This document shows positions 22,054 through 48,156 of a stretch of DNA of 64,000 bases, in pieces. Origin of the DNA: a virus; IMG/VR virus record IMGVR_UViG_3300027792_000015, positions 1 through 64,000 of that record; one strand, 5' to 3'. Numbering within the stretch: position 1 is the first letter of the stretch; every line of letters starts with the position of its first letter. The notes under the pieces are model-generated. The model was given only the letters and a program-made list of their open reading frames with translations. It was not told where the DNA came from and searched no databases. A program made the translations under genes and the position numbers.

Positions 22054-22905
22054 TTATACATCTTTGTGTAATTTCCCATTTATTATATCTAAAATAGTAG
22101 ATTTGTCTACTGAAAACATTTTTCCCAGCTTTCTCGATGGGAATTTTACACCATCATACAGTGTTTTAATTTGTATTATTTGGTCTGTTGATAATTTGTT
22201 ATTGTTTGTAATATTTCCATCACTGTCACGTTTACACATATTTTTAATTAAAACAAATTTGTCATACTTTCTTTGTAAACCAATTTTATCTAATTCAAAT
22301 CCATCATAGATATAATCTCCTAATTTTATTATATTGCTATAACTTTGGACACTGATATTTGAGTATGATCCCTTTTTTGCTTCTTTTGTGTTTATATAAT
22401 ATTTGTTTATTGTTAGCTCGTTAAATAAATTAATAACAAAATCCCAATTTTGGCCAAATGGACCAGCAAGTGTAAATGCTTTTCTTTTATTTACGGCGTC
22501 AACATAGAAGCATCCATCGCCGCATATTAATCCTCTAAACCAATACTTGTGTAAATCCTTTGGTATAACATTCAATATGCTATCAGCAGATATTTTGCTA
22601 TTTGAGCCGTAACCATGATTTAATAAAAAATTGTATATATCTTTATTGCTTGTTGATAAAGTTACACTTTTTTCTTTTGATCTCTCCCTTATGTTTCTAA
22701 CATATATGTTCCATTTTCCCGTAGCATTACACATATTGATTAAGTTTTCGGAATCTGATTCCTTGGTGTAAATTTGTATATTATAGTTCCCTAATTTATA
22801 TTTGACAATATGGCCATCGGCCCATATATATCCCAAAAGGTAAGCTGAATACTTATTCATTTTATCGCTATATATAAATATATCTTTAAAAACTTTATCT
22901 GTCAT
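22054..22905 (-). CDS. LAGLIDADG homing endonuclease
   Basis: 283 aa, the only gene seen on the minus strand. Two LAGLIDADG helices: AYLLGYIWADGHIV (about residue 23) and YWFRGLICGDGCFYV (about residue 120), each ending in the catalytic acidic residue. C-terminal helix-turn-helix-like region (SRKLGKMFSVDKSTILDII). On its own strand AAGGAG precedes the ATG. It lies between the gene at 21753 and the helicase gene without breaking either, as a free-standing mobile gene. Confidence 0.85.
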   Translation of the reverse strand: MTDKVFKDIFIYSDKMNKYSAYLLGYIWADGHIVKYKLGNYNIQIYTKESDSENLINMCNATGKWNIYVRNIRERSKEKSVTLSTSNKDIYNFLLNHGYGSNSKISADSILNVIPKDLHKYWFRGLICGDGCFYVDAVNKRKAFTLAGPFGQNWDFVINLFNELTINKYYINTKEAKKGSYSNISVQSYSNIIKLGDYIYDGFELDKIGLQRKYDKFVLIKNMCKRDSDGNITNNNKLSTDQIIQIKTLYDGVKFPSRKLGKMFSVDKSTILDIINGKLHKDV

Positions 22906-24704: not shown

Positions 24705-24853
24705 ATAAATTAGGCGGCAAAGAATTTGTATTAATTAATAGAAGGAAAGTGGATCGAAATATAAATGGAGCCTTGGATATTTTGTTCAGGGCAGCTGGAA
24801 ATACATCCTATTTTAATGGTGATGTTCAAAATTGCACTGTTAATAAAAGTTAG
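24701..24853 (+). CDS. Small hypothetical protein
   Basis: 50 aa with an AGGAGAAG RBS. Sequence MNKLGGKEFVLINRRKVDRN then a polar C-terminus. No family recognised. Confidence 0.6.
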   Translation: MNKLGGKEFVLINRRKVDRNINGALDILFRAAGNTSYFNGDVQNCTVNKS

Positions 24854-24875
24854 CAGAAAGGTATCGGCACGCAAC

Positions 24876-25292
24876 ATGAACCTCGGAAAAGTTATAAAAA
24901 TATATGAAATCATTAAAAATAGATTACCTAAAACTTATCCTCACCCAAAACTCGCCTTCTTTGAGGATGAGGATTGCATGTTAAGCAACACTAATTTAAA
25001 AAAAATAGAAAACGAAAATGTATATGCGGTATTTTCCCCAACCACAGAAACGATATGCTTGCCACTTAAAATGACCTTTGAGTATTATGGGAAAAATGGA
25101 AAGTATATAAACACAGTTAATTTAAATAAATTCACTGATGTAGAAATTGCTCATACTTTATTGCATGAGTGTTGTCATATGTATGCTGGCGAAAAGTATG
25201 GATATTTTTCAGAAAAATATCATGATGAAAAATATTGTGATACATTTGCGAGTAGGTGGGTAAAGGTTTTGGTTAAGGAAAAATTACTATGA
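24876..25292 (+). CDS. Putative zinc metallopeptidase (HExxH)
   Basis: 138 aa from ATG 24876; upstream in-frame ATGs overlap the previous gene. HTLLHECCHMYAG near residue 98 is the zinc-binding HExxH helix, followed by YHDEKYCDTFASRW, in which an H or D could be the third ligand. The small size and layout recall SprT/WSS-type or ImmA/IrrE-type peptidases, but neither is firm. Confidence 0.65.
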   Translation: MNLGKVIKIYEIIKNRLPKTYPHPKLAFFEDEDCMLSNTNLKKIENENVYAVFSPTTETICLPLKMTFEYYGKNGKYINTVNLNKFTDVEIAHTLLHECCHMYAGEKYGYFSEKYHDEKYCDTFASRWVKVLVKEKLL

Positions 25293-25309
25293 CGCTTTTA
25301 CATCGATGA
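25289..25309 (+). pseudogene. Remnant of the start of a YwqK-type gene
   Basis: The bases read MTLLHR and stop, a truncated and frameshifted copy of the MTLLHDA start of the YwqK family. It overlaps the peptidase stop in an ATGA, where such genes usually start. The CRISPR-like unit at 25329 follows within 20 nt. Confidence 0.6.
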
Positions 25310-25328
25310 CAAAATAGTGGAATGGGTT

Positions 25329-25363
25329 GTCGCAACACCCAAAAATGTTGCGTGGATTGAAAC
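25329..25363 (+). CRISPR. Solitary CRISPR-repeat-like unit 1 (subtype I-C-like)
   Basis: 35 nt beginning GTCGCAACA, with CGCAACA (25331-25337) pairing with TGTTGCG (25346-25352) around an 8-nt loop, then the 11-nt tail TGGATTGAAAC. Subtype I-C repeats have this design, and the 11-nt tail equals the 5' handle that Cas5d leaves on crRNA. There is no second repeat within the next few hundred bases and no cas gene, so it is not an array. Nearly identical to the unit at 49632. Confidence 0.75.
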
Positions 25364-25425
25364 AACAGGGCAACAAAAAATAGAGTGAAGAGTAACATTA
25401 TAATAAATAAAGAAAGGTGGTTTTT

Positions 25426-25590
25426 ATGTCTTTGGCACTTGTAAAATTATCAAAAAAGCGCAATGGACGAATATATTATTTTTTGGATTACATTAGTTTA
25501 GATGTAGCAAGATTGGGCGTTCAAATACAAGGTGAGGAACACAATAAGAATGAGTGGGCCCTGGCTGAAATTGTAAGAGAATTTAAGTAA
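25426..25590 (+). CDS. Small hypothetical protein
   Basis: 54 aa, AAAGG upstream. Sequence MSLALVKLSKKRNGRIYYFL then a C-terminal helix (NEWALAEIVREFK). No family recognised. Followed by a hairpin with a T-run. Confidence 0.6.
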   Translation: MSLALVKLSKKRNGRIYYFLDYISLDVARLGVQIQGEEHNKNEWALAEIVREFK

Positions 25591-25601: not shown

Positions 25602-25635
25602 GGTTGCATATGCCTGAAAGCATATGCAGCCTTTT
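25602..25635 (+). terminator. Hairpin: terminator or left end of the TnpB element
   Basis: GGTTGCATATGC (25602-25613) pairs with GCATATGCAGCC (25620-25631) around CTGAAA, then TTTT. It could end the transcript of the gene at 25426, or be the subterminal hairpin of an IS200/IS605-type left end. Confidence 0.65.
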
Positions 25636-25662
25636 AGGTATCGAATATATTTATGTTTTCCA

Positions 25663-25691
25663 TTGACAATTGTTGACAAACGGTATATTAT
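25663..25691 (+). promoter_or_regulatory. Sigma70-type promoter of tnpB
   Basis: TTGACA (25663-25668), 17-nt spacer, TATTAT (25686-25691), 8 nt before the tnpB ATG. A second TTGACA at 25673 and TATAAT at 25692 are badly spaced. The transcript would have almost no leader. Confidence 0.5.
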
Positions 25692-25698
25692 TATAATA

Positions 25699-26865
25699 AT
25701 GTTCAAATCCACGAAAACTACTTTACGGTTTGCTAATACTGGTAAACGAAATCACCTTGACAGTTTCCTCGACGAGTATCGTCGTGTGCTTGCGGTTTTC
25801 GTGGATTTGCTTTGGTCGCAAGAAAAGGTCCCAGTGTTGTTACCAGCTTCCGTCACGAAACCAATTCAAACTACTTCGTGGCTTTCCGCGAGAATACTAC
25901 AAGCCGCAGGAAAACAGGCCAGCGGAATAGTTCGCGGAACTCGTAAAAAGCAACAACAACGAAAGTGGGTTTACGACAAACTCCAAACCGAAGGCAAATT
26001 TAAACAAGCACGAAAACTAAAACGAATTATAGACAAAGTCATTATAACCAAACCAAATATAAATCAAGTAGAACCAGAATTAGATTCGCGTTTTGTAAAA
26101 CAGGACTGGACCAACTCAACTACTTTTGATGGGTTCGTGACTTTGTCTTCGTTGGGTAATCATTTAAAAATTGTGCTACCAGTAAAGCGTAATAAACATT
26201 TCAATAAATTGCTCACCGCTGGAACACTTAAAACCGGTGTCAGGATTTCACGTAATGCTTTGACTTTTTGTTTTGAATTACCTGACGTCAAACCGCGTTC
26301 CACAGGAACTACACTGGGAATAGACTTGGGAGTAAAAAATACTATCTCTACTTCCCAAGGATTTTCCAGTAAGCCCGACAACCACGGACATACACTGGAT
26401 TCCATCAATACACGATTGACACGGAAAACAAAAGGTTCTAAAAACTTTAAACAGACACAAACACTACGAACTAATTACATAAACTGGTCTGTGAATCAAC
26501 TTAATTTAGACCAAGTTAAGACCGTAAAACTCGAAAACTTAAAACATTTTCGTAAAGGCGTAAAAACTTCACGCAAACTAACCCACTTCACCTACACAGA
26601 GATTCAAAGTAAAGTAGTAAATTGTTGTAATTTACTTGGTGTCCAAGTAGAATACGTAAATCCTACTTATACTTCTCAAAGGTGTAGTTGTTGTGGTTGG
26701 GTTCGTAGTAGCAATAGGAAAGGCAAACAGTTTAAGTGCAAAGCCTGCGGCTTCGCTGTGGATGCGGATTTAAATGCTGCCTTAAATATTGCCACTAACC
26801 TTCGGCCTATTGGCCGTGAGGAACGATTGCTCCACAAAAACCGCAAGGGTTTTTACTGGAAGTAA
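25699..26865 (+). CDS. tnpB: TnpB RNA-guided nuclease (IS605 family)
   Basis: 388 aa from ATG 25699. RuvC-like residues are all present: D in GIDLGVKNT (about residue 215), E in KLENLKHF (about residue 275) and D in VDADLNAALNIA near the end. Between them is the four-Cys zinc finger SQRCSCCGW...FKCKACGF. TnpB proteins of this size are RNA-guided DNA nucleases whose guide RNA comes from the 3' end of their own gene. GC content is higher than in its neighbours, consistent with recent arrival. Confidence 0.92.
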   Translation: MFKSTKTTLRFANTGKRNHLDSFLDEYRRVLAVFVDLLWSQEKVPVLLPASVTKPIQTTSWLSARILQAAGKQASGIVRGTRKKQQQRKWVYDKLQTEGKFKQARKLKRIIDKVIITKPNINQVEPELDSRFVKQDWTNSTTFDGFVTLSSLGNHLKIVLPVKRNKHFNKLLTAGTLKTGVRISRNALTFCFELPDVKPRSTGTTLGIDLGVKNTISTSQGFSSKPDNHGHTLDSINTRLTRKTKGSKNFKQTQTLRTNYINWSVNQLNLDQVKTVKLENLKHFRKGVKTSRKLTHFTYTEIQSKVVNCCNLLGVQVEYVNPTYTSQRCSCCGWVRSSNRKGKQFKCKACGFAVDADLNAALNIATNLRPIGREERLLHKNRKGFYWK

Positions 26866-28227: not shown

Positions 28228-29020
28228 ATTACTTTTTAGAAACACACTGGCGGAAGAAAACGAATTACAAATAGCAAAAAAATATTTTGATATAAAACAG
28301 TATCGTTCAGAAATTACTCCGGGAGCGTTGATTATAGGCAGATATTCTGTTCTACCTTACTATAATGAACTGGAAAAAGATATACTAAAATTAGGCGGCA
28401 AACTAATTAACTCCTACGAAGATCATCTTTATATTGCTGACATAAAAAATTGGTATCCTGATTACCGAGACATAACGCCTATGACTTGGTTCGACCCATC
28501 AGAAGCAATACGGTCCGACTTTAACGGTTCCTTTGTTTTAAAAGGCAATGTGAATTCTCGAAAGCAATTGTTTAACACACATATGTTTGCTGCGAATAAA
28601 TCTAATATAATGAAAGTTTATTGCAAATTATTAGACGACACTCTTATTCAATATCAGGGAATTTGTGTCAGAGAGTTTGTGAATTTAATCAACTACGGCA
28701 AAGACCAAGTAACCGGTTGCCCAATATCAAAAGAGTTTAGGCTTTTTATTTTAGACGGCAAAGTTCTTTCAAAGGGATATTACTGGTCAAATTTTGTTGA
28801 AGAAGCAGAAAATCCGGACCCAAACGAAATACCAGAAGACTTCATACAAGACGCAATCAAAAGATGCCCAGTAAGATTTTTTGCTATTGACTTGGCCCAG
28901 AAAACTAACGGTGATTGGATGGTAGTTGAATTAGGAGATGCACAGATGGCTGGTCCATCTTGTAATGATTTAGATAGTTTATATAAAAACTTAAAGGAAA
29001 ATCTATGCAAAAAAGTATGA
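28220..29020 (+). CDS. ATP-grasp domain protein (R2K-clade-like)
   Basis: 266 aa. ATP-grasp landmarks: FVLKGNVNSRKQLF (about residue 110), GICVREFVNL (about residue 150), EFRLFILDGKVLS (about residue 173) and FFAIDLAQKTNGDWMVVELGD near the end, with the Mg-binding D and E. Such enzymes ligate a carboxylate to an amine or thiol using ATP, for example amino acids onto peptides. The R2K clade is common in phages and modification clusters. The substrate might be a small peptide, and the tiny-gene array begins immediately after it, with a 16-nt overlap. Confidence 0.75.
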   Translation: MIELLFRNTLAEENELQIAKKYFDIKQYRSEITPGALIIGRYSVLPYYNELEKDILKLGGKLINSYEDHLYIADIKNWYPDYRDITPMTWFDPSEAIRSDFNGSFVLKGNVNSRKQLFNTHMFAANKSNIMKVYCKLLDDTLIQYQGICVREFVNLINYGKDQVTGCPISKEFRLFILDGKVLSKGYYWSNFVEEAENPDPNEIPEDFIQDAIKRCPVRFFAIDLAQKTNGDWMVVELGDAQMAGPSCNDLDSLYKNLKENLCKKV

Positions 29021-29184
29021 CAGATGTATATTTGAGTGTTTTAAAACACAAATGGCATTTAAGTGTGGCAAGAATGCAATTGTTACCAGAAGAAGAAATT
29101 AGATTATATTTAATGCCAACGATTAATGGCTATTATTGGCGCTCCATAGTTATAGTTAGTGGAAGTCAATGCAAGTATCAATGA
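29005..29184 (+). CDS. YIFK-box small protein, array 1 member 1
   Basis: 59 aa, core TDVYLSVLKHKWHLS after an MQKSM start. C-terminal half beta-like (IRLYLMPTINGYYW, SIVIVSG). Overlaps the ATP-grasp gene by 16 nt. Confidence 0.75.
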   Translation: MQKSMTDVYLSVLKHKWHLSVARMQLLPEEEIRLYLMPTINGYYWRSIVIVSGSQCKYQ

Positions 29185-29366
29185 CATACATTTATATTTA
29201 TGCACTCAAACATAAATGGTGTCTTAATTTATGTGGTTCAGTATTTAAGAACGAAATTTGTTTAAGTATGAGACCGGCAAGGAGCAGTAATTGTTATATT
29301 TTTCGTGTAAAGGAAATCTATGCAAGCAACAATGATGTATGTATATTTAAGTGTCCTAAAATATGA
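29169..29366 (+). CDS. YIFK-box small protein, array 1 member 2
   Basis: 65 aa, MQVSM start, core TYIYIYALKHKWCLN. Last 15 codons overlap the next gene, so its C-terminus (SNNDVCIFKCPKI) may not be conserved. Confidence 0.7.
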   Translation: MQVSMTYIYIYALKHKWCLNLCGSVFKNEICLSMRPARSSNCYIFRVKEIYASNNDVCIFKCPKI

Positions 29367-29499
29367 GTGGGGATTAAGGTTGGGGCAAAAAAATCCAATA
29401 TTACAAAACAACAACATTTGTGTATGCTTGACTCAACCAACAATGTCTGGCGGTTATGGTTATCGTGAGTATAATTATTTAATTAAGGCAAAACAATGA
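29320..29499 (+). CDS. YIFK-box small protein, array 1 member 3
   Basis: 59 aa, MQATM start after AAAGGA, core MYVYLSVLKYEWGLR. C-terminal half contains ICVCLTQPTMSGGY. Confidence 0.75.
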   Translation: MQATMMYVYLSVLKYEWGLRLGQKNPILQNNNICVCLTQPTMSGGYGYREYNYLIKAKQ

Positions 29500-29669
29500 G
29501 ACCGATTATAAAGTATACATATTTATATGTATTTAAACACAATTTTGGTTTATCCGTTGATGTTCTTACAAAAAATGAATTAGTGTTACTTGCAACACCT
29601 CTAAATAACAATGATTATTGTCCCTTTCGAATATTTATTAAGCAGGTAAGATTATGCAAGCAAATATGA
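29496..29669 (+). CDS. YIFK-box small protein, array 1 member 4
   Basis: 57 aa, core KYTYLYVFKHNFGLS. ATGA overlap with the upstream gene; its last residues CKQI come from the start codons of the next gene. Confidence 0.75.
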   Translation: MRPIIKYTYLYVFKHNFGLSVDVLTKNELVLLATPLNNNDYCPFRIFIKQVRLCKQI

Positions 29670-29823
29670 TGAGTTTGTATTTTTATACATTAAAATATAA
29701 TTGGCATTTAGAGAATACCCATATATCGGTGAAAATAAAATTTACATCGACATTAGACCAAGCGTAAATGGTTTTCATTGCTTCCATATTATAATTGAGG
29801 GAAACACATGCAACCTAAAATGA
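29654..29823 (+). pseudogene. YIFK-box small gene with frameshift, array 1 member 5
   Basis: MQANM start and core MSLYFYTLKYNWHLE in frame 1, but this frame stops early at 29767. The expected C-terminal half (GENKIYIDIRPSVNGFHCFH) continues in another frame to a TGA at 29821, as in member 1. One indel near 29720 has broken the gene. Confidence 0.65.
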
Positions 29824-29975
29824 AAACCGTATATATTCTTAATTTGAAGCACAACTATTGTGTGGACAGCGCAGAAATAATCGATAGCGAAATTACAATA
29901 TATTTAAGGTCATCCATTAATAGTTTTAAACGGCATACTATTACGATATACGAGGATCAAGCAGCATGCAATTAG
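29808..29975 (+). CDS. YIFK-box small protein, array 1 member 6
   Basis: 55 aa, MQPKM start, core KTVYILNLKHNYCVD. C-terminal half EITIYLRSSINSFKRHTITIY. Confidence 0.75.
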   Translation: MQPKMKTVYILNLKHNYCVDSAEIIDSEITIYLRSSINSFKRHTITIYEDQAACN

Positions 29976-30136
29976 ATATGGTAGATTTATATGTTTATGT
30001 GTTGAAATCTAAATGGAGTTTGGAGCGTGAAACAATTATATACGAAAATATGCTTTGGATATATATGAGACCAAAACTTAATAGTTTTTACCGTTATCGT
30101 ATTACAATTAAAGGAAATTTATGCAAGAGTCTATGA
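29966..30136 (+). CDS. YIFK-box small protein, array 1 member 7
   Basis: 56 aa, MQLDM start, core VDLYVYVLKSKWSLE. C-terminal half MLWIYMRPKLNSFYRY; ends CKSL over the next start. Confidence 0.75.
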   Translation: MQLDMVDLYVYVLKSKWSLERETIIYENMLWIYMRPKLNSFYRYRITIKGNLCKSL

Positions 30137-30276
30137 AAGCCATATATATTCTTAATTTAAAATATAATTACCAAATATTTAAAGATAAGATAGTAATAAA
30201 CAATAATAAAATTAGATTAACTGTTGGTGGAATTCAAGTTGAGATGCATTTAAAATGGAGGAACAAAGATGATTAA
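30121..30276 (+). CDS. YIFK-box small protein, array 1 member 8
   Basis: 51 aa, MQESM start, core KAIYILNLKYNYQIF, very similar to member 6 in the core. Overlaps the membrane-protein gene by 8 nt. Confidence 0.75.
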   Translation: MQESMKAIYILNLKYNYQIFKDKIVINNNKIRLTVGGIQVEMHLKWRNKDD

Positions 30277-30868
30277 TAAAGAGTTTGCAAATATAATGAA
30301 CAATGCAAAAGATTTAACAATTGGGCAAGTATTTAAAATAATTACTCATCTTAAATTCAAAACAGTGGCCGCCGTTGTTGCTTTTTTTGTGGCGATCGTA
30401 TCAGGTTCTTTTGTGATAGGTAGATATTCCTATCAAGAAAAAACGGCACTTACCCTCGATAGTCCATTTGGTATGAGGTTGCTGATAAGTGAAAAACAAT
30501 ACGAATTCAAAAACCTAATCTTAATGGAAGACCCAATTAATTTGGCAGACAATAGTGTAATACTAACTATACGAGAAATACAAAATGCCTTTGATATAGT
30601 TCCGATAGGAAAAATAGTTGCACGAAAAGAAAAAATTGAGTTGCCAGGAGTTTTTGGGTTGTTCAATTTTAAGTCAATCGGAGTGGCCAAAGCATCAGAA
30701 GAGTTTAATTGGAACGGCCACGAGAACGATATGAATTTTAAGGAAGTATTTATTGATAGCAACACTATAAACAGATACTACGAAGACGGTTGTATTTTAG
30801 AGTATAAAGTTTGCGAGGATAGAAAATCTAACAAAGGTTCTTTTAGATGGATACAACAAAATCATTAA
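30269..30868 (+). CDS. Membrane protein embedded in the tiny-gene array
   Basis: 199 aa. A single membrane segment at about residues 33-53 (TVAAVVAFFVAIVSGSFVIG) follows a cytoplasmic-type N-terminus; the rest is a soluble domain (SPFGMRLLISEKQYEFKNLI...). RBS GGAGG inside the previous tiny gene. It is the only full-size gene in array 1 and shares translational overlaps with the tiny genes on both sides. Function unknown. Confidence 0.75.
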   Translation: MINKEFANIMNNAKDLTIGQVFKIITHLKFKTVAAVVAFFVAIVSGSFVIGRYSYQEKTALTLDSPFGMRLLISEKQYEFKNLILMEDPINLADNSVILTIREIQNAFDIVPIGKIVARKEKIELPGVFGLFNFKSIGVAKASEEFNWNGHENDMNFKEVFIDSNTINRYYEDGCILEYKVCEDRKSNKGSFRWIQQNH

Positions 30869-31014
30869 TGCAGGGTAGTATGAAAAATTTATACCGCGAT
30901 GTATTTAAACATAATTTTTATGCAAAGGAAGTATATATTATTGAATGTTATACTTTAATTCGGTGTTTAAATAACCATCACGAATATGAAGTTTATCACT
31001 GTTACTTTAAATAA
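30868..31014 (+). CDS. YIFK-box small protein, array 1 member 9
   Basis: 48 aa, MQGSM start overlapping the upstream stop (TAATG), core KNLYRDVFKHNFYAK. C-terminal half TLIRCLNNHHEYEVYH. Confidence 0.75.
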   Translation: MQGSMKNLYRDVFKHNFYAKEVYIIECYTLIRCLNNHHEYEVYHCYFK

Positions 31015-31026
31015 AGGACATTATTA

Positions 31027-31206
31027 ATGCAATCAGAAATGATGAATGTATTTAAATGTGGAAATAGAATAAATGCTATTTGGATTATGGAAGGATATGT
31101 TGATATTTATTTTAAAGATTCTTTTTGGTATTCTTATTTTTTAGGTGCGCTTATTTTGAATAACGGAGTCACAAATGCAATCAGATATGATAGCTTTATA
31201 CTGTGA
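31027..31206 (+). CDS. YIFK-box small protein, shortened core, array 1 member 10
   Basis: 59 aa, MQSEMMN start followed at once by VFKCGNRINA, so the LYxx part of the core is missing. The last ten codons overlap member 11. Probably derived from a neighbour by a small deletion. Confidence 0.6.
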   Translation: MQSEMMNVFKCGNRINAIWIMEGYVDIYFKDSFWYSYFLGALILNNGVTNAIRYDSFIL

Positions 31207-31351
31207 TGTATTTAAATGTAATTGTAAGATATCAAGTTATAAAATATTACCAAAATTTCGCGCAAGTTATGGAACACACAGAAACCACATTAGAGTAAGT
31301 TGCGAGGGATCATCACAACATGATTTTTATATTATTTGGTATAAAAAATGA
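31175..31351 (+). CDS. YIFK-box small protein, array 1 member 11
   Basis: 58 aa, MQSDM start, core IALYCDVFKCNCKIS. C-terminal half HIRVSCEGSSQHDFYI. Confidence 0.75.
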   Translation: MQSDMIALYCDVFKCNCKISSYKILPKFRASYGTHRNHIRVSCEGSSQHDFYIIWYKK

Positions 31352-31521
31352 TGCAACCAGAAATGATAAGATTATATAAAAATATGTTTAAATGTCATTA
31401 CAAAATAGTAGAGCATTACTTTATAGAAAACAACAGTGATAATAAAAAATGGGTAGTTGTAAGGGCTAATGGTGGGTTTCCATATTATACTGCTCACTTT
31501 ATTGAGTGTGCAAATGAATAA
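31348..31521 (+). CDS. YIFK-box small protein, array 1 member 12
   Basis: 57 aa, MMQPEM start in an ATGA overlap, core IRLYKNMFKCHYKIV. C-terminal half WVVVRANGGFPYYTAHF. Confidence 0.75.
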   Translation: MMQPEMIRLYKNMFKCHYKIVEHYFIENNSDNKKWVVVRANGGFPYYTAHFIECANE

Positions 31522-31687
31522 TATACAATCATTGATGGGAAATAATATGAAAATGCTGTATGCCGATGTATTGAATCGTGGCCTTAAAATTGTGAAAGCG
31601 CCCATTTTTCGTGGCAAATTTATGTATATTTTCGTCGAGGTTGGTCCGGGAAGAAATGTATGTAGTATATTTCGCTGCACAATTTAG
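31514..31687 (+). CDS. YIFK-box small protein, array 1 member 13
   Basis: 57 aa from 31514, core KMLYADVLNRGLKIV; the in-frame ATG at 31547 gives a form closer to the usual family start. C-terminal half FMYIFVEVGPGRN. Confidence 0.7.
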   Translation: MNNIQSLMGNNMKMLYADVLNRGLKIVKAPIFRGKFMYIFVEVGPGRNVCSIFRCTI

Positions 31688-31698
31688 GTGAGAAGACA

Positions 31699-31863
31699 AT
31701 GCAATTTTATATGAAACAATTATATTGCGATATTTTTATGAGAAAATATAAAATAATAAGTTATAGTGATGAATTAAGATATGTTAATTCTAATGAAAAA
31801 ATTATTGAAATAGTTTGCGGTGAGAATGGGTATATTTATCATTATTCTATCCATCACAAATAA
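31699..31863 (+). CDS. YIFK-box small protein, array 1 member 14
   Basis: 54 aa, MQFYM start, core KQLYCDIFMRKYKII. C-terminal half KIIEIVCGENGYIYHY. Confidence 0.75.
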   Translation: MQFYMKQLYCDIFMRKYKIISYSDELRYVNSNEKIIEIVCGENGYIYHYSIHHK

Positions 31864-31875
31864 GGAAATCTACTA

Positions 31876-32046
31876 ATGCAATTTTATATGAAAGTGTTAT
31901 ATCGGGATTATTTTAAATATGGATATAAAATAAACAATGTATATATCGATGATTTATCTAATGATATTTTAAATATTTATTGTCATACATGTGAGTATCA
32001 AACATATACCATTAGAATTGGCTTTAATTATATATATGACATATGA
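31876..32046 (+). CDS. YIFK-box small protein, array 1 member 15
   Basis: 56 aa, MQFYM start, core KVLYRDYFKYGYKIN. Its last codons form the left arm of the long hairpin at 32016. Confidence 0.75.
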   Translation: MQFYMKVLYRDYFKYGYKINNVYIDDLSNDILNIYCHTCEYQTYTIRIGFNYIYDI

Positions 32047-32069
32047 AAAGTATATAATTAAAGCCAATT
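32016..32069 (+). repeat. Long perfect inverted repeat (hairpin) after array 1
   Basis: AATTGGCTTTAATTATATA (32016-32034) pairs with TATATAATTAAAGCCAATT (32051-32069), 19 bp with a 16-nt loop. AT-rich and without a following T-run. It may terminate or protect the array transcript. The 83 bases from here to the next tiny gene hold nothing else I can identify. Confidence 0.7.
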
Positions 32070-32152
32070 GATATTTATAAAAGTTTAAATTTATGTATGT
32101 TTGTTTTAAAGATTTAATGTAGCTTACTCATATACTATAAGGTTTAATAAAA

Positions 32153-32296
32153 ATGCAATATAGTATGAGACAATTATATATAGATATATTTAAATATGGA
32201 GAAAAGCCAAAAAGTGCTACTATATCACATAAAAAAATTGTGATATTTAGTTCATATGGTGATTCGCTACTTAGATATACGATAGATTTAGTTTGA
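32153..32296 (+). CDS. YIFK-box small protein, array 1 member 16
   Basis: 47 aa, MQYSM start, core RQLYIDIFKYGEKPK. C-terminal half KIVIFSSYGDSLLRYTI. Its stop overlaps the -35 box of the next promoter. Confidence 0.75.
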   Translation: MQYSMRQLYIDIFKYGEKPKSATISHKKIVIFSSYGDSLLRYTIDLV

Positions 32297-32320
32297 CACT
32301 TGTGTTTTTTTAACTATACT
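32293..32320 (+). promoter_or_regulatory. Sigma70-type promoter
   Basis: TTGACA (32293-32298), 16-nt spacer, TATACT (32315-32320), followed 7 nt later by AAGGAG and the ATG at 32338. A clear promoter for the transcript with the Vsr-like nuclease and GroEL. Confidence 0.7.
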
Positions 32321-32337
32321 ACATATCAAGGAGACAA

Positions 32338-32556
32338 ATGAATAGAGAAATTTTAAGAAACAAAGCGAAGAAAATGTATAAAGAGAACATAAAAAATGTT
32401 GCAAAGAATCAAAGGATATCTTTCAATGAGTTTTTTAAACGATACCGCGAGTCTCTCAAAAATAAGAGTTCAGACATCGTTGAGACAGAAGGCCAAGAAG
32501 ACTTTGACTTGGAACAAGTAGCGAATGTGAATGAAGTAACGGAAAAGAAAGGTTGA
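32338..32556 (+). CDS. Small hypothetical protein
   Basis: 72 aa with a perfect AAGGAG RBS and its own promoter. Basic N-terminal half (NREILRNKAKKMYKENIK) and acidic C-terminal half (VETEGQEDFDLEQ). It may be an early regulator; no family recognised. Confidence 0.7.
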   Translation: MNREILRNKAKKMYKENIKNVAKNQRISFNEFFKRYRESLKNKSSDIVETEGQEDFDLEQVANVNEVTEKKG

Positions 32557-32586
32557 TAAAGTAAATATAATACTCTTAACAATTAA

Positions 32587-35306
<2,720 letters not shown>

Positions 35307-38830: not shown

Positions 38831-39410
38831 CGCCTACACTGCTTATTTGGCTGGTTTGACTACCGAAATAAAAGCTGGAATATTATGGAAAGATGAACAC
38901 GGAATAAATGTGGTCATTAAAATAATTGATGCTAAAAAAGAAACATATAGGGTTCGTTATTACCACAAAAATGGAACAGTCGTTAATGAAAAACACTACA
39001 AAGGTAATTTTTTACACGGGCAATCGATAGAAAGATATACATCGGGAAAAATAAAAAAGATAAGTAATTTCAATAAAGGCATTGAATGCAAATTTTCCAT
39101 AGTATATGATAAATTTGGCCAAAAAATAATAGAAGAAACCTTTAATAATAAGGGTGCGCCTATTGATATAAAAAGATACGCAGATGGTAAAATATATTTT
39201 CATATGGTAACTATTTCAAAAAATACTCGTGATGTAGAACATTATGATGAGAATGAAAACAAATGCCGTGTAGATAGATTTTGTGATGGGAACCTTATCT
39301 GCAAAACAGAATACCACATTAATGGCAAAATAAAGAGCATAAGACGTCACGGGGAATTCATTGCATATGATACAGAGGGTAATATTATAGAAAGAAAAAT
39401 TTATGAATGA
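38814..39410 (+). CDS. YwqK/MORN-type repeat protein, longest (member 10)
   Basis: 198 aa from ATG 38814. MTLLHDAYTAYLAGLTTEIK then degenerate repeats over the whole length (YYHKNGTVVNEKHYKGNFLHG, RYTSGKIKKISNFNKG). It overlaps the nuclease gene at 39403 by 8 nt. Confidence 0.75.
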   Translation: MTLLHDAYTAYLAGLTTEIKAGILWKDEHGINVVIKIIDAKKETYRVRYYHKNGTVVNEKHYKGNFLHGQSIERYTSGKIKKISNFNKGIECKFSIVYDKFGQKIIEETFNNKGAPIDIKRYADGKIYFHMVTISKNTRDVEHYDENENKCRVDRFCDGNLICKTEYHINGKIKSIRRHGEFIAYDTEGNIIERKIYE

Positions 39411-40257
39411 TATTATTGTTGATATTTTTTGCAAACTTCGTGGTCATTTTTTTGACACCGCGCTAAACCCAATACCGTTTCACTTGCGGCCTAAAATAAA
39501 TACGCAAGATGACCCGCTTGACGAATACATAACAAAAGAGATATTATCAAAGTTGAGCGGTGGCATAAAGTGCGAGCGTAGTGGTTCTCTTACTTCACCG
39601 GATGCAGTGATTTATAGCCAAGATGCAAGTCAATTACATCCGATACAATTAGATAATAATATTAAAAAAATGGTTGGATTAGAAATTAAAAAAGTGGGAA
39701 GACGCAACAATGGGACACTTGCGAGATTAAATACAATAGATTTTAATTCTACCCCGCCGTGTGGAACAATATTAGTTTATAGTAATTTAGATGAATCAAT
39801 GCCCATCAGATGTTTTTATCTATTTGTTTGTTTAGAGAAATCAAAAAAGAATGTTTTTATTTCTTCATTATCTTTGGTGGATGGTGACCTACTAAATGAT
39901 GACTTTGATTTTTATTTAAGCATTGTTGGTGAGAGAGAAAAAACAATTAGCCTGGGCTCTTATGGTGATGGAATTAATAGGTCAAGGCCAATGCTTGTGT
40001 TTCCTAATCCCTTGTCAATTTCTGTGTTCGATCGTAATGCTACACTAATACATTACGATACAAACATTCACGGTATGTCAAAAATAGCGACAATAAATAG
40101 GTTAAATGTATCTGGCACAAACAAACAATTTACTTGTTATTGTGCAAAGGGTGATTCGAAATTAAGCGAAATCATAAATCTTGGAGACCCATTTACTGTT
40201 CCGAAAAATAGAAGCATAAGAACAAATCAACGAGGAAAGTTTAAAATATCATTTTAG
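39403..40257 (+). CDS. Putative PD-(D/E)XK restriction-type endonuclease
   Basis: 284 aa. SPDAVIYSQ (about residue 65) and GLEIKKVGR (about residue 90) give the PD...(D/E)xK active-site pattern of type II restriction enzymes. The remaining regions are beta-rich with SYGDGINRSRPMLVFPNP. No methyltransferase is seen nearby, so it might degrade host DNA or act as a mobile nuclease. Family assignment is by motif only. Confidence 0.6.
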   Translation: MNDIIVDIFCKLRGHFFDTALNPIPFHLRPKINTQDDPLDEYITKEILSKLSGGIKCERSGSLTSPDAVIYSQDASQLHPIQLDNNIKKMVGLEIKKVGRRNNGTLARLNTIDFNSTPPCGTILVYSNLDESMPIRCFYLFVCLEKSKKNVFISSLSLVDGDLLNDDFDFYLSIVGEREKTISLGSYGDGINRSRPMLVFPNPLSISVFDRNATLIHYDTNIHGMSKIATINRLNVSGTNKQFTCYCAKGDSKLSEIINLGDPFTVPKNRSIRTNQRGKFKISF

Positions 40258-40264
40258 GGAAAAC

Positions 40265-40582
40265 ATGAAAATTACAAAAAGATGGAATAATTTAATAAAT
40301 ATTAGCAAAATAAATTACGATATGGTTGAGATAGATGAATCGGTATATGCTTGCGCCCCAAGCGTTTTAGATAATAAAGAAATATTAAACAGTTTGAGCA
40401 CTGGGAAATTATGTGACTTTTACACAGTAGAAAGTTTAAAAGATAAAAGGTCGAGTCATTTAAATTTATCTATTATGTGGGAGGCCGTAGCAAGGTGGGT
40501 GTATAGGTGTCAGTGTGGTGCTGAAAAAACTAAAACAACTCATTCATTGTGGTGTCCAAAACATGACAGTCACAGAAAATAA
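40265..40582 (+). CDS. Hypothetical protein with C-terminal zinc motif
   Basis: 105 aa. C-terminal RCQCGAEKTKTTHSLWCPKH is a likely zinc-binding CxC...CxxH site. It overlaps the next frame by 20 nt. Confidence 0.65.
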   Translation: MKITKRWNNLINISKINYDMVEIDESVYACAPSVLDNKEILNSLSTGKLCDFYTVESLKDKRSSHLNLSIMWEAVARWVYRCQCGAEKTKTTHSLWCPKHDSHRK

Positions 40583-40700
40583 TGCATTATATTTTATAGT
40601 TTTTGTGAAGGGTTATAAATTATCAAACGATGAAACAAAGATTTATATTCTTTCAAAAACGGATGGCCGGCAGTTATGCTGGTATCCAATACATGATTAA
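40563..40700 (+). CDS. YIFK-box small protein (isolated, divergent member)
   Basis: 45 aa from ATG 40563, core NALYFIVFVKGYKLSN, then KIYILSKTDGRQLCWY. The core fits the family with one inserted residue. Confidence 0.55.
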   Translation: MTVTENNALYFIVFVKGYKLSNDETKIYILSKTDGRQLCWYPIHD

Positions 40701-40720
40701 TTTAGATAGGAGATGATGCT

Positions 40721-41017
40721 ATGTCAAAGTGTTATGATGAATTGGTTAAAGAAAACCAATCATTGAAAAATTTTATTCACAAAGTAGAAACATCACAAAT
40801 GAGTTTGGTTATTGCTGATTTAATAGCATCAAAAGAAAATATCCAATTATTAGTTTTAAAGTATAAAGAACTGTTGGATAAAAATAGCAACCAAGAATTA
40901 GAGTTAAAAGATTATAGAAGTCATGTGCTAATGCTAAAAAATAAAATACAATTACTTGAAGAAGAGTGCGTAGTTTTGCACAACCAAGTTTATAATTACG
41001 AAAAATGGAGACAGTAA
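40721..41017 (+). CDS. Coiled-coil protein
   Basis: 98 aa, mostly heptads (ELVKENQSLKNFIHKVE, LKNKIQLLEEECVVLHNQV). GGAG upstream. TAATG overlap with the next gene. Confidence 0.7.
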   Translation: MSKCYDELVKENQSLKNFIHKVETSQMSLVIADLIASKENIQLLVLKYKELLDKNSNQELELKDYRSHVLMLKNKIQLLEEECVVLHNQVYNYEKWRQ

Positions 41018-41250
41018 TGAGTTCATATAATGTCGATGAGTCCCTAAAAATAATTGATGATCTGTTGGGCGTTGCAGGCGAAGTATATGAAGCGACAATG
41101 AATGACCTTGTTGAGGTCGAGCAAGGTGTATGCCCCGAAGAAATAGAAATTGCGCAAACAAAATTTAAAGAAGTGGTAGAAAAACTTCGCAGAAGGGTTT
41201 CTGATTTACATTACCACATAGAGTATTTGGAAGAAAAAGATTGTTGGTAA
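41017..41250 (+). CDS. Small hypothetical helical protein
   Basis: 77 aa from ATG 41017, GGAGA upstream; contains LRRRVSDLHYHIEYLEEKD. Function unknown. Confidence 0.65.
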   Translation: MSSYNVDESLKIIDDLLGVAGEVYEATMNDLVEVEQGVCPEEIEIAQTKFKEVVEKLRRRVSDLHYHIEYLEEKDCW

Positions 41251-41270
41251 TCATAAGATTGGAGGATAAT

Positions 41271-41603
41271 GTGAGTTATACTGTCGAAGAAGCATTCAAA
41301 GAAATAGAAAATGACAAGAAAGTTTCAGAACAAAAAAAGATTAAGGAATTGGAAGAAAATTATAAATGTATGATAAAGACTATGTGTGAGTCTTATACTG
41401 GTCTTCGTTCTGCGTTATTTGATATTAGTTGTGATGGTTTCAATTACAATGCTAATAGTAATATGGTGAAAGTCACTACAACGGAAAAATGGGCCAATAC
41501 TTTAATAGACCAGTGGATAAATAATGATCCCGATTTAGTGTTTATTAGCGGGAATTTCGTTACATTGTTGTCTGAATTTGTTATCAGAAATAGAGAAACT
41601 TAA
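41271..41603 (+). CDS. Hypothetical protein
   Basis: 110 aa with a GTG start at 41271, 5 nt after GGAGG. N-terminal coiled coil (EIENDKKVSEQKKIKELEENY) then a small domain. No family recognised. Confidence 0.65.
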   Translation: MSYTVEEAFKEIENDKKVSEQKKIKELEENYKCMIKTMCESYTGLRSALFDISCDGFNYNANSNMVKVTTTEKWANTLIDQWINNDPDLVFISGNFVTLLSEFVIRNRET

Positions 41604-41622
41604 TATTTTTTGCGGAGGCAGT

Positions 41623-41805
41623 ATGCCAATTTACGAATATAAATGCAAACATTGTGGTAAAAAAATAGAGTTATTTCAAAAATTAGATGAACTTCCCCCG
41701 ATGTGTGAGTGCGGCGCAGGCGAAATGTCAAAAGAAATTAGCCTTTCGACATTCATATTAAAGGGAACTGGGTGGTATAAAACCGACTACAAAAATAAAA
41801 AATAG
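41623..41805 (+). CDS. FmdB-type zinc-ribbon protein
   Basis: 60 aa from ATG 41623, GGAGG RBS. MPIYEYKCKHCGKKIELFQ then MCECGAG...FILKGTGWYKTDY is the full FmdB/CxxC-CxxC family pattern. Proposed as a regulatory zinc-ribbon; role unclear. Confidence 0.88.
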   Translation: MPIYEYKCKHCGKKIELFQKLDELPPMCECGAGEMSKEISLSTFILKGTGWYKTDYKNKK

Positions 41806-41813
41806 GAAGTGTA

Positions 41814-42209
41814 ATGAAAACAATACTTATGTTTAAAGATTATAACAAATATAAAAATATACTTTTTGATGTCTCCACAAAAGAACAAGAGAAAAAAATA
41901 TACGCTTATATTTTGAAAAAATTCTTAAATAAAAAGAAGATGATTAAAACCCAAAAAGAAAATATGGCGAGAGTTGATTTCAGTTGCAAGGCTTGTAAAA
42001 ACAAACGCTTTATTATAGCAGACAATGAAAAATATCCGTGCCCAATTTGTAGGGCCGATGATTCGGATTTTATGTATCATGCGGGAGTGATTAAAAACAT
42101 AGATTTTCTTTATGATAAAGCCCTAAACGGTAATAGAAAATCATTTAGATATTTGATGGAATACTATTACGACGGCTACATAGAATATTTAAATGTGAAA
42201 GAAATATGA
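41814..42209 (+). CDS. Hypothetical zinc-ribbon protein
   Basis: 131 aa. FSCKACKNKRF...YPCPICRADD (about residues 55-80) is a four-Cys ribbon. ATGA overlap with the deformylase gene. Confidence 0.7.
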   Translation: MKTILMFKDYNKYKNILFDVSTKEQEKKIYAYILKKFLNKKKMIKTQKENMARVDFSCKACKNKRFIIADNEKYPCPICRADDSDFMYHAGVIKNIDFLYDKALNGNRKSFRYLMEYYYDGYIEYLNVKEI

Positions 42210-42688
42210 TTATAACAAACGCCGCACAATTAAAAATTCCGTGCAAAAGGATATCAATTTTTGAGGCATTTCCAGTAATTGATTTACTTAAAATAGAATT
42301 AGAGCGCCATAAGAATGGCGTAGGTCTCGCGGCCAATCAAATAGGTATAGATGCTTGTGTTTGTGTTGTGCAATCAAATGAACTAATAGCCTTAATTAAT
42401 CCGGTCATTGTTGGTGCATACGACTTGGTTGAATTTAAAAACGAAGGTTGTTTAAGTTTTCCAAATCAATATATAACAACCAAACGACATAATGAAATTT
42501 TTGTGAAGGATGATTTACACCCATATGGTTTGATATTTTATGGGTTTGAGGCCGTTCAAGTTGAGCATGAGGTAGGCCACTTAAACGGAGAAACTATGTT
42601 TGATTATGAAATAAAAATACCACAAAGAAACGAGAAATGTTGGTGTGGCAGTGGAATCAAGTATAAAAATTGCCATGGTAAAAAATAA
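42206..42688 (+). CDS. def: Peptide deformylase with C-terminal SEC-C motif
   Basis: 160 aa. Three deformylase motifs: GVGLAANQIG (about residue 38), NEGCLSFP (about residue 78, Cys metal ligand) and QVEHEVGHLNG (about residue 116, HExxH ligands). The end CWCGSGIKYKNCHG is a SEC-C zinc motif, which in SecA binds SecB and ribosomes. A SEC-C fused to a deformylase is unusual. It removes formyl groups from nascent chains at the ribosome exit. Phage deformylases are known in marine phages. Confidence 0.9.
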   Translation: MIITNAAQLKIPCKRISIFEAFPVIDLLKIELERHKNGVGLAANQIGIDACVCVVQSNELIALINPVIVGAYDLVEFKNEGCLSFPNQYITTKRHNEIFVKDDLHPYGLIFYGFEAVQVEHEVGHLNGETMFDYEIKIPQRNEKCWCGSGIKYKNCHGKK

Positions 42689-42704
42689 ATGGAGAGTATA
42701 GAAT

Positions 42705-43658
42705 ATGAATAGTGAATATTTTTACGACGAAATTTTAAAAAGCGCGGGCAATGAAAAACAATTTAAACTATTGATAAGTGTGGTTCCACCAAAAAATATA
42801 TCTGATTTTTTGTGTATAAAAAGAATGGTGGAAGCAAAAAGCTATAATCCAAAAATATTAAAAACAACCATAAATGCTATGTTTGACGCACACATAAAAA
42901 AAATAATTAAGACAAAAAATAGCTACTATTATGATGGCGGAAGAGACAATGTTGTTACATTATATGCAATATTAAAACATATTCAAATTAACAAAAAAGT
43001 TATTAAAAGAGTAATAGATATTCTACCATTTATTCCACACAAAATAGACTATGCTCCAATGTTGATAGCAACTATTCTAAAATACAAAATAAGTTCTGAT
43101 GAGGCATATAAAATTTTTAATTCACAATGGGAATCTTTATCTCAAAAAAACAGACAACTATTACTATCAAAAATTGATGGCGGAATTGACAATAAAAACT
43201 TTTGTAAATCTACAAGTAAATCAGTTGCTTTATTTGTGTCTGGCAAAACTGACGAAGAAAAACCTTTAAAACTTATGAAGAAATACATATTAAAAGATAT
43301 AAGGTTGTCAAGTTTCTTACCACGGAATAAAAAGATTAATTTTACAAAAAAAGATTTAGAGGAAATGAATCCTGAAAATAGATTTTATATTCTCGACGAA
43401 CTTTTGCCACTATCATATAGCTCGACACTTAAAATGTCTGAATTACTTTATATTAAACATTTTTCTTATAATTGGGGCAAAACTACCATCGATATATTGC
43501 CGGTAGAGTGTATGGAAAAACTATTGTTTTCCGTCGTAATAGACAACGACACAGACGCCGGTGACTGGTTGAAAAATTATAGAATATTTGTTAAACTTGC
43601 TCCAAGGTCACCAATAGCGAAATATTTTAATTTTATGAAAGAGGAAAGCAATGATTGA
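42705..43658 (+). CDS. Helical hypothetical protein of the five-member family
   Basis: 317 aa. C-terminal pattern NPENRFYILDEL...VECMEKLLFSVVIDNDTDAGDW. Tandem paralogue of the next gene and related in pattern to the helical proteins at 14390, 17788 and 19495. GGAG upstream. Confidence 0.7.
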   Translation: MNSEYFYDEILKSAGNEKQFKLLISVVPPKNISDFLCIKRMVEAKSYNPKILKTTINAMFDAHIKKIIKTKNSYYYDGGRDNVVTLYAILKHIQINKKVIKRVIDILPFIPHKIDYAPMLIATILKYKISSDEAYKIFNSQWESLSQKNRQLLLSKIDGGIDNKNFCKSTSKSVALFVSGKTDEEKPLKLMKKYILKDIRLSSFLPRNKKINFTKKDLEEMNPENRFYILDELLPLSYSSTLKMSELLYIKHFSYNWGKTTIDILPVECMEKLLFSVVIDNDTDAGDWLKNYRIFVKLAPRSPIAKYFNFMKEESND

Positions 43659-44580
43659 TGATAATACTTATGCCGAAATTTTAAACAAAATAAAAGACGA
43701 CATATATTTGTTTGATGGGTTTTGTAAAAAAGTCCCACCAAGTAATCCAGAACAAGAAAAAATTTATTCTGATATAAATTGTGCAATACAAGAATCTGAA
43801 ACGGACAAAAGAATTAACAAACTGCTAAATAATAAAAGCAAATTTTATAAGTTCGGCAATGATTTGAGTAAGATTATATCTTCCAAAAGAATGCACATAG
43901 GCAGTAAAACTATGAATCATGTGATAAAGTTTTTTATTAATAATGGGCATAGGTTTTATCCGTATGCTTCAAGGGAGTTAATAAAAGAAATATCACCAGA
44001 TATTACTGACGAAGACACAGCAATAAAAATTTTGACGGCGCACAGCGGACATCTGGATAATAAATCATGCGAGTTATTGTTAAATAAAATTAATTTAGGA
44101 ACAGATAATCCTAATCTCGCAAGTGTATCTAAACTTAAAGTTTTTGCCGGAATAAAGGTTGCTCGCGCAGATTTAAGTATTCCAGAAGAAAAGATAAAGG
44201 TATTGAATATCATAGCACAAAGGCCAACACTCATAAAATATTTAAAGAGCCAGGTTAATTTTACTTTTGAGGAATTGAAAACTTTGCCACCCGTAAGAAG
44301 GTTTAATTTTTTGGAAGCAATGTTTTCAGGAATGCCAAGACACAGTCGTTTTAGGACTGGAACACTTAAAAGAGTAAATGCTATTACGTCGTATGTAAAT
44401 GGTTACTGGGGAAATTTTAGAATGGACATAATACCAGAAGAACAAATGAATGAGTTATTGTTTTCAGTTGTAATACAAAAAAATAATAGGGTTGTAGATT
44501 TGTTTGAGAATTATAAGGAATTTTTAGGCTTTGTTCAAGCGCATAAATCACATTTTAATGGAATTTTAACTATAAAGTGA
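43651..44580 (+). CDS. Helical hypothetical protein of the five-member family
   Basis: 309 aa. C-terminal pattern PPVRRFNFLEAM...EEQMNELLFSVVIQKNNRVVDLF. An 8-nt overlap with the upstream paralogue. The MoxR-VWA genes are 27 kb away, so these two may act separately. Confidence 0.7.
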   Translation: MIDDNTYAEILNKIKDDIYLFDGFCKKVPPSNPEQEKIYSDINCAIQESETDKRINKLLNNKSKFYKFGNDLSKIISSKRMHIGSKTMNHVIKFFINNGHRFYPYASRELIKEISPDITDEDTAIKILTAHSGHLDNKSCELLLNKINLGTDNPNLASVSKLKVFAGIKVARADLSIPEEKIKVLNIIAQRPTLIKYLKSQVNFTFEELKTLPPVRRFNFLEAMFSGMPRHSRFRTGTLKRVNAITSYVNGYWGNFRMDIIPEEQMNELLFSVVIQKNNRVVDLFENYKEFLGFVQAHKSHFNGILTIK

Positions 44581-46318: not shown

Positions 46319-46570
46319 ATGAAAAACGAAGAAATGGAAACAATGTATGTGGAGTGCATGTGTGAAGACCAATCACACACTTTAAGGTTTTCACAAATAG
46401 GTGAAGATGTTTGTGTATCAATGCACCTAACTATGTTTGGATTTTGCGTCCGACTTTGGAATGCTCTGAAATATATCTTTGGCCATCGATCGAAGTTTGG
46501 TGATTTCGAGGAAACCATTTTGGAAAGAAAAGATATAAAAAAGATAGTTGGGTTTCTGAAAAATGTCTGA
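46319..46570 (+). CDS. Hypothetical protein
   Basis: 83 aa from ATG 46319, GGAG upstream. Contains METMYVECMCEDQSHTLRF and WNALKYIFGHRSKFGDF. No family recognised. Overlaps the first gene of array 2. Confidence 0.65.
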   Translation: MKNEEMETMYVECMCEDQSHTLRFSQIGEDVCVSMHLTMFGFCVRLWNALKYIFGHRSKFGDFEETILERKDIKKIVGFLKNV

Positions 46571-46736
46571 ATATATGCAAGATTTTTATAAATCTGTTTT
46601 TAAATACGGGACGAAAATTATAAAAAAATACGAATTATGTAGTAATAATTTGTCCATTGATTTAAAAAACAAGGGTGGGTATTCCGGGATTAGATATTAT
46701 TTTTATTGCAGGATAAATAAATATGATATTGACTGA
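46563..46736 (+). CDS. YIFK-box small protein, array 2 member 1
   Basis: 57 aa, MSEYM start, core QDFYKSVFKYGTKII. C-terminal half LSIDLKNKGGYSGIRYY. Confidence 0.75.
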   Translation: MSEYMQDFYKSVFKYGTKIIKKYELCSNNLSIDLKNKGGYSGIRYYFYCRINKYDID

Positions 46737-46901
46737 CGAAGAAAGAATATTGTATATTAAAAGAATATATATTTATCTTTTAAAAAAAAAGGAGTGATAG
46801 CAAAAAGCCATACACGTGATGCTTTTTATCATAGCGTAGTTACGATTGGTGTTCCGGGAGACATATTTTGTGCAGACAATTATTTATCTGAATGTAGGTG
46901 A
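46723..46901 (+). pseudogene. YIFK-box small gene broken at a nine-A run, array 2 member 2
   Basis: Core KRIYIYLLKKK runs into A9 and stops at TGA. One extra A would restore GVIAKSHTRDAFYH...VTIGVPGDIF to 46901, the normal family length. Either a slippage mutation or a site for programmed slippage. Confidence 0.6.
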
Positions 46902-46904
46902 TTT

Positions 46905-47060
46905 GTGCAATACGGAATGATGAATGTTTATATTATGTATTTCAAACGCAAACATAGTATTTATGCCGGCGGTAAAATTAAAGAATTTAATAATATATAT
47001 TTGCGTGTAGATTTTATAATTAATGGGTATGTTAGGGGCTACACTATACTGCAAAAATAA
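46905..47060 (+). CDS. YIFK-box small protein, array 2 member 3
   Basis: 51 aa with a GTG start (MQYGM-like), core MNVYIMYFKRKHSIY. ATG 46917 is an alternative start. Confidence 0.7.
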   Translation: MQYGMMNVYIMYFKRKHSIYAGGKIKEFNNIYLRVDFIINGYVRGYTILQK

Positions 47061-47074
47061 TGTTGGAGTAAGTT

Positions 47075-47233
47075 ATGCGCGAATCTATGAAAATGGTTTA
47101 TGTTAAATTTCTAAAACACAAACAAATAATATACAAATATGAAATTTATCAATATTTTGGCAAAGAATTTGTAGCGATAGAGTTTAATGGTTTTGGCGTT
47201 TGGCCTTACCGAGTTTCAATAGAGGTAATATAG
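47075..47233 (+). CDS. YIFK-box small protein, array 2 member 4
   Basis: 52 aa, MRESM start, core KMVYVKFLKHKQIIY. C-terminal half FVAIEFNGFGVWPYRVSI. Confidence 0.75.
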   Translation: MRESMKMVYVKFLKHKQIIYKYEIYQYFGKEFVAIEFNGFGVWPYRVSIEVI

Positions 47234-47243
47234 GTGGCAGACT

Positions 47244-47384
47244 ATGCAGCAACATATGAAAATAGTTTATATTAGATTTATGAAAAAACAACAACAAATA
47301 TGTGCATATAAAATTAGACTCAATTATCTGACGGTAGATTTTAATATATTCGAAAGTATTTGGCATTATTATATCAATTTTTAA
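47244..47384 (+). CDS. YIFK-box small protein, array 2 member 5
   Basis: 46 aa, MQQHM start, core KIVYIRFMKKQQQIC. Similar to member 4 in core and length. Confidence 0.75.
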   Translation: MQQHMKIVYIRFMKKQQQICAYKIRLNYLTVDFNIFESIWHYYINF

Positions 47385-47396
47385 GAAAGTTAAATC

Positions 47397-47525
47397 ATGC
47401 AATACGAAATGATGCAAATATATACTAAAATTTTAAAACATGGTCGTAAAATTGATTCTTATAGTATGTTGTTTGATTCTACTTGTTTAGAGGTTAATAT
47501 TTTTCCTTCCACTTATTTTATATAA
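47397..47525 (+). CDS. YIFK-box small protein, array 2 member 6
   Basis: 42 aa, MQYEM start, core MQIYTKILKHGRKID. One of the shortest members. Confidence 0.7.
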   Translation: MQYEMMQIYTKILKHGRKIDSYSMLFDSTCLEVNIFPSTYFI

Positions 47526-47539
47526 TATCGGAGTAGTTT

Positions 47540-47695: not shown

Positions 47696-47697
47696 TC

Positions 47698-47975: not shown

Positions 47976-47995
47976 TTTTGTTTTAAGGTAAAATA

Positions 47996-48154: not shown

Positions 48155-48156
48155 TT

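Follow-up and report, generated by a model that had tools for sequence, protein, structure and literature searches.

Solitary CRISPR repeat units (SRUs) are known in phages, and 2,103 of them have been reported on viral sequences (PMC10651486). One of them, RacrIC1, is a subtype I-C SRU located beside AcrIC5 in a prophage of Bifidobacterium pseudocatenulatum, 11 nt behind the acr gene with which it is co-transcribed; RacrIC1 alone restored infection for a CRISPR-targeted phage (PMC10651486). The RNA of another unit, RacrIF1, forms an aberrant Cas6f-Cas7f subcomplex, and a non-targeting crRNA acts similarly (PMC10651486). Hence the sequence-only reading, which regarded the action of single repeats as RNA anti-CRISPRs (Racrs) as known, agrees with the literature, where RacrIC1 is a tested I-C example. 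A related strategy is that of viral CRISPR mini-arrays, which contain two repeats and a matching spacer (PMC11656645).

Here, we describe two I-C-like units of a phage genome. On the best reading of their sequence, they are a candidate I-C Racr pair that adds to the already known class of RNA decoys, while a single locus by itself is a confirmation of a published phenomenon. Similar to RacrIC1, each unit is a single I-C-type repeat in an intergenic region of a phage genome and has no partner repeat. Unlike RacrIC1, which has been tested, the units are known from sequence, are present as two dispersed copies, and have neither a recognized acr neighbor nor a matching host repeat among those found. 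With the mini-arrays they share the encoding of a repeat-derived RNA by a virus that lacks a full CRISPR system, although the units comprise one repeat each and have no target.

The units come from an IMG/VR record of 105,248 bp representing a tailed phage with the GC content of 33–36%; the coordinates below refer to the window, that is, the analyzed 64,000-nucleotide stretch of this record. Matches to PHROG families include the terminase large subunit, portal, DnaE-type polymerase, SbcD-like protein, and GroEL, while no tRNA genes and no Cas5d (PF09704) were found in the record. Unit 1 (GTCGCAACACCCAAAAATGTTGCGTGGATTGAAAC, 35 nt) occupies positions 25329–25363 of the plus strand, exactly as first read, with the described stem and 11-nt tail. 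The stem CGCAACA/TGTTGCG (25331–25337 and 25346–25352) encloses an 8-nt loop and is followed by the tail TGGATTGAAAC (25353–25363); folded in isolation, the unit yields exactly the predicted hairpin, with the energy of −8.4 kcal/mol. Unit 2 (GTCGCAACACCTAAAATGTTGCGTGGATTGAAAC, 34 nt, 49632–49665, plus strand) has the same 7-bp stem and the same 11-nt tail of the I-C type. Its loop, CCTAAAA, differs from that of unit 1 by one substitution and one deletion, and there are no other changes between the copies. The entire record contains only these two close copies and no third one, with up to three mismatches allowed in the 18-nt 3′ part. Under the first-order Markov model, the two strands of 105 kb would together be expected to contain 2.5e-6 matches to the pattern GTCGC-N12..24-GCGTGGATTGAAAC, which excludes a chance match.

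The original description of unit 1 as having no partner repeat holds for its vicinity and has to be amended by the existence of unit 2. No partner repeat was found within 150 nt of either unit, the best local matches being no better than random stretches. SRUs are defined by an intergenic position and by the absence of any other repeat, complete or partial, within 100 bp; neither unit has such a repeat, and both lie between genes of the same strand, unit 2 being inside a broken paralog ORF. The search of the window against Rfam gave no match. The flanks of the two units look somewhat similar (GGGTT... upstream, AA(A)CAG downstream), but this apparent homology is not significant (P = 0.16 and 0.10, respectively).

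Repeats of subtype I-C, which are processed by Cas5d, resemble the units in the GTCGC start, the 7–8-bp stem, and the GCG followed by the TGGATTGAAAC tail. The units thus follow the scheme GTCGC..stem..GCG + TGGATTGAAAY with a 7–8-bp stem, the comparison set having been picked by the same end pattern. On the other hand, the units are longer (35 and 34 nt compared to the usual 31–33), and have an A/T-richer stem and a 7–8-nt loop. When about 85,000 species genomes were scanned for stems CGCAA..TTGCG with the unit tail, we found real arrays in Cohnella (GTCGCAACCCGTACGGGTTGCGTGGATTGAAAT) and Holdemania, and a few single matches. Cas5d scored above the family cut-off in four of the eight genomes or records with such arrays or single matches. 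In addition, a 125-kb viral contig from IMG/VR carries an array of a 36-nt repeat, GTCGCATCCTCTAACAAAGGATGCGTGGATTGAAAC, with an 8-bp stem, a 7-nt loop, and the identical tail; this array begins 3.1 kb after a Cas5d gene, which means that longer, A/T-richer I-C repeats do exist. The gene and the array (IMGVR_UViG_3300025669_002088, 39005–43745) possibly form a phage-borne I-C system. The same 36-nt repeat is also found at the end of a 188-kb contig, which carries solitary variants too.

The SRUFinder criterion for a repeat match is at least 90% identity over at least 90% of a known CRISPR repeat. Compared to I-C repeats, the units have exact invariant ends, while no natural repeat with the unit stem was found in the scanned species genomes or IMG/VR. 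In particular, neither about 85,000 species genomes nor IMG/VR contained an array with the exact stem and tail, or the same unit in exact or stem-constrained scans, and the best blastn match of the unit among phages and plasmids had E of about 4. One same-stem match was dismissed as a chance one, as it had a different tail and lay in a G+C-rich stretch reading like coding sequence. The relatives of the phage TerL and GroEL proved too distant for host inference. Still, the fact that genomes with Cas5d above the cut-off contain arrays that share the ends of the units and have comparable stems supports, at the sequence level, the assignment of the units to subtype I-C, as had been suggested for unit 1. 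The sequence-only reading had named the lack of a bacterial repeat with this sequence as refuting; among about 85,000 species genomes, no repeat with the exact stem was found, although related I-C stems occur.

Unit 1 is flanked by an ORF ending at 25292 and an ORF beginning at 25417/25426. The upstream neighbor is a SprT/metalloprotease-like ORF (24765–25292, plus strand; a weak match below the cut-off). It is followed by a remnant of the start of a YwqK/MORN-family gene, ATGACGCTTTTACAT at 25289, encoding MTLLH and then a stop (25289–25316, plus strand); the remnant comprises 15–30 bp, and the region 25280–25316 resembles other copies of the family. Downstream, there are a 57-aa ORF with no family match (25417–25590, plus strand) and, about 340 bp from the unit, a gene of the TnpB family of RNA-guided endonucleases (25624–26865, plus strand; the likely start at 25702). 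Hence both neighbors mentioned in the sequence-only reading, the broken YwqK gene start and tnpB, are indeed there, but they carry no explanatory weight, as unit 2 has neither. For the same reason, TnpB is probably a bystander. No known acr gene was recognized by the family search among the neighbors of the units.

TnpB (25702–26865) has intact-looking catalytic motifs and a zinc ribbon, and its start is close to an inverted repeat, CAAATCCACGAAAAC/GTTTTCGTGGATTTG; the neighboring genes examined included no TnpA. MORN/YwqK-like genes are dispersed over the window, starting at 7312, 21136, 21414, 27097, 27440, 27796, 37992, 38342, and 38775, and share the start M..LHDA.TAYL(S/A)GLT. A gene with a homing-endonuclease-like match (phrog_4645) occupies 22054–22905 on the minus strand, a rare case in a genome that is otherwise almost wholly plus-stranded.

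Unit 2 sits within a cluster of tandem paralogous ORFs of about 50 aa (M.xxM..xYxxxxK..). There are at least 36 such ORFs in two clusters (29005–32600 and 46560–51920), and the members searched have no convincing match in Pfam, PHROG or NCBIfam. Such a family is unusual for a phage, and it is apparently duplicating fast. Judging by the reading frame, unit 2 appears to have been inserted, as a stretch of 34 nt, into the C-terminal region of one decayed paralog. The 5′ part of the interrupted gene (49514–49631, plus strand) and its 3′ part (TEFYGPHFIWTGNRCK*, 49666–49720, plus strand) are in frame if the 34 nt are removed. The joined flanks form one open frame (..MLTEARNSVEKAKRNFLIMKLAGL|KTEFYGPHFIWTGNRCK*), whose end overlaps the next ATG (49709, 43 nt from the unit) as in other copies. 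As a frame match alone has about one-in-three odds, this is moderate evidence for the insertion. There is also a weak alignment between the 3′ flank and the 3′ terminus of the next paralog (66% over 56 nt, E = 0.25). The same paralog copy also has an upstream frameshift.

The isolated hairpin of unit 1, which had been described correctly, is predicted to be largely displaced by the flanks in the native context. The predicted pairing probability of its stem is 0.03–0.06 with 20 to 60 nt of flanking sequence on each side. With ±40 nt, the predicted hairpin probability is about 0.05 for unit 1 and 0.96 for unit 2. The competitors in unit 1 are the UGGGU..ACCCA pairing upstream and the UGUUGC..GCAACA pairing downstream, which reduce the stem to about 5% in the prediction; the GCAACA comes from the A-rich 3′ flank (AACAGGGCAACAAAAAATAG, 25364–25383, plus strand). 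This makes unit 2 the better candidate: given the predicted folds, it is the likelier active copy, while unit 1 may have decayed, or its activity may be weaker or conditional. A predicted in-context probability below 0.3 is seen in 25% of solitary I-C units among the matches listed. Racrs are defined by an expressed RNA with a promoter within 250 bp upstream; promoter or terminator signals near both units did not exceed the shuffled expectation. The upstream genes are co-directional with the units, which allows for read-through, and, given the lack of above-chance promoters, such read-through would be the simplest RNA source.

To place the units among others of their kind, we used the end-pattern scan of IMG/VR, which yielded at least 119 stretches ending in C and 48 ending in T; the survey set comprised 104 distinct solitary units with stems of at least 5 bp among the matches listed. 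By a crude ORF call, 50% of these 104 listed units are intergenic, compared to 9% of random positions (P about 5e-27). Units flanked by genes of their own strand outnumber those flanked by opposite-strand genes, 26 to 10 (P = 0.011), and several phages have at least two units per contig, both again among the matches listed.

Taken together, we put the probability that both units are I-C SRUs that act, or acted, as RNA anti-CRISPRs at roughly 0.6. The units would be transcribed within plus-strand phage mRNAs, and host Cas5d would recognize the hairpin with the TGGATTGAAAC tail and cut at the stem base. The product would carry a genuine 11-nt 5′ handle and no phage-targeting guide. It could hold Cas5d in unproductive complexes, probably together with Cas7 along the unstructured, A-rich sequence 3′ of the unit, so that they would be competed away from real crRNAs. 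This reading is favored by the exact I-C ends and the 7-bp stem, far above chance; by two copies with loop-only differences; and by Cas5d in genomes with same-frame arrays, including the GTCGCATCCTCTAACAAAGGATGCGTGGATTGAAAC array 3.1 kb from its Cas5d. It also agrees with the mostly intergenic, co-directional placement of solitary I-C units among the matches listed, which both units share, with the several contigs that have two or more units among these matches, with the in-context hairpin of unit 2 (0.96), and with the RacrIC1 precedent and SRU biology (PMC10651486). Against it are the lack of an array sharing the stem and the tail of the units, both in IMG/VR and in about 85,000 species genomes, the lack of above-chance promoters or terminators near either unit, the low in-context probability of the unit 1 stem (about 0.05), no known acr neighbor in the family search, and the finding of the units in none of 15 related phage records, most of which are fragments. 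Of the initial proposal of a candidate RNA anti-CRISPR, the I-C subtype and the membership in a known class were retained, while a host repeat with the exact stem was not found in the genomes scanned. If active, the pair would constitute an I-C RNA anti-CRISPR present in two copies, in a phage whose close relatives are absent from the annotated phage records searched.

The units could instead be inert relics, that is, single repeats that came from a host I-C array via illegitimate recombination, one of them into a decayed paralog gene, and are functionless now. This is possible, if on the whole unlikely: decaying genes and paralog turnover mark the surroundings of both units, in-context misfolding is predicted for the stem of unit 1, and there are no above-chance promoters nearby, but the stem and the tail are identical between the copies, with changes confined to the loop, and relics need not be as strongly intergenic as solitary I-C units are across phages among the matches listed. 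A single repeat with any following sequence can be processed by Cas5d to an RNA with a 5′ handle. Hence the units might also provide guides, the repeat and the downstream sequence steering host I-C effectors to a competitor or a host gene, in the manner of a mini-array or CreA. We consider this very unlikely, as no other repeat lies within 150 nt of the units, the sequence 3′ of unit 2 resembles the 3′ terminus of a paralog gene of the phage, and 50,697 phage records contain no match to the pseudo-spacers; the absence of targets has already weakened this explanation. Neither unit shows what defines a CRISPR mini-array, a second repeat with a spacer matching a related virus.

There is similarly little to commend a role at the DNA level, as a decoy for spacer insertion by Cas1-Cas2 or as a site of recombination between the phage and host arrays. 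Such roles were proposed for SRUs in earlier literature, as cited in PMC10651486; at our units, however, there is no identified leader-like element, no inserted spacer, and no partner repeat. Finally, the I-C likeness might be incidental, and the hairpin might belong to the neighboring TnpB element, as a transposon end or a part of its guide RNA, or be another phage regulatory hairpin. The attraction of this explanation is the proximity of unit 1 to tnpB, which starts about 340 bp downstream; however, TnpB guide RNAs are located at the 3′ end of the gene. Moreover, a distance of 23 kb separates unit 2 from that tnpB, no other tnpB was seen next to unit 2, and the match to the I-C frame is far above chance, which makes this explanation very improbable. 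No hairpin of the same sequence was found elsewhere in IMG/VR.

For the RNA anti-CRISPR reading, the sequence directly 3′ of the units is of interest: AACAG in unit 1 and AAACAG in unit 2. The 3′ flank of unit 2 (AAACAGAATTC..., 49666–49685, plus strand) starts with AAAC, as do those of 9 of the 104 solitary I-C units among the matches listed, compared to 3 of 178 array repeats (P = 0.011), the count being based on the very data that had drawn attention to the bias. At least one of these three array cases probably belongs with the solitary units, having an (AAAC)n tail. Among the same listed matches, the 20 nt 3′ of solitary units contain 36.7% A, compared to 25.2% behind array repeats, and AAACAAAC is present 3′ of five solitary units. 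The survey suggests that phages contain many solitary I-C repeats and that these have an A-rich 3′ flank in common, which provides a simple testable idea on Cas7 loading by decoys. The tail bias may be compositional or mutational in origin. More speculatively, and rather improbably, I-C solitary units might be functional and mobile cassettes of 34 nt, whose A-rich, partly (AAAC)n, tail has been selected and serves as an unstructured Cas7-loading track; then unit 2 would exemplify a cassette that entered a gene, while unit 1 would be a copy with a flank-switched hairpin. Among the matches listed, (AAAC)n sometimes follows solitary I-C units, and the A-rich 3′ flank is class-wide. A contig of a Synergistales MAG has a solitary I-C-like unit with an A/T-richer stem (751–786, minus strand) directly before GGAGGTGA, which resembles a ribosome-binding site.
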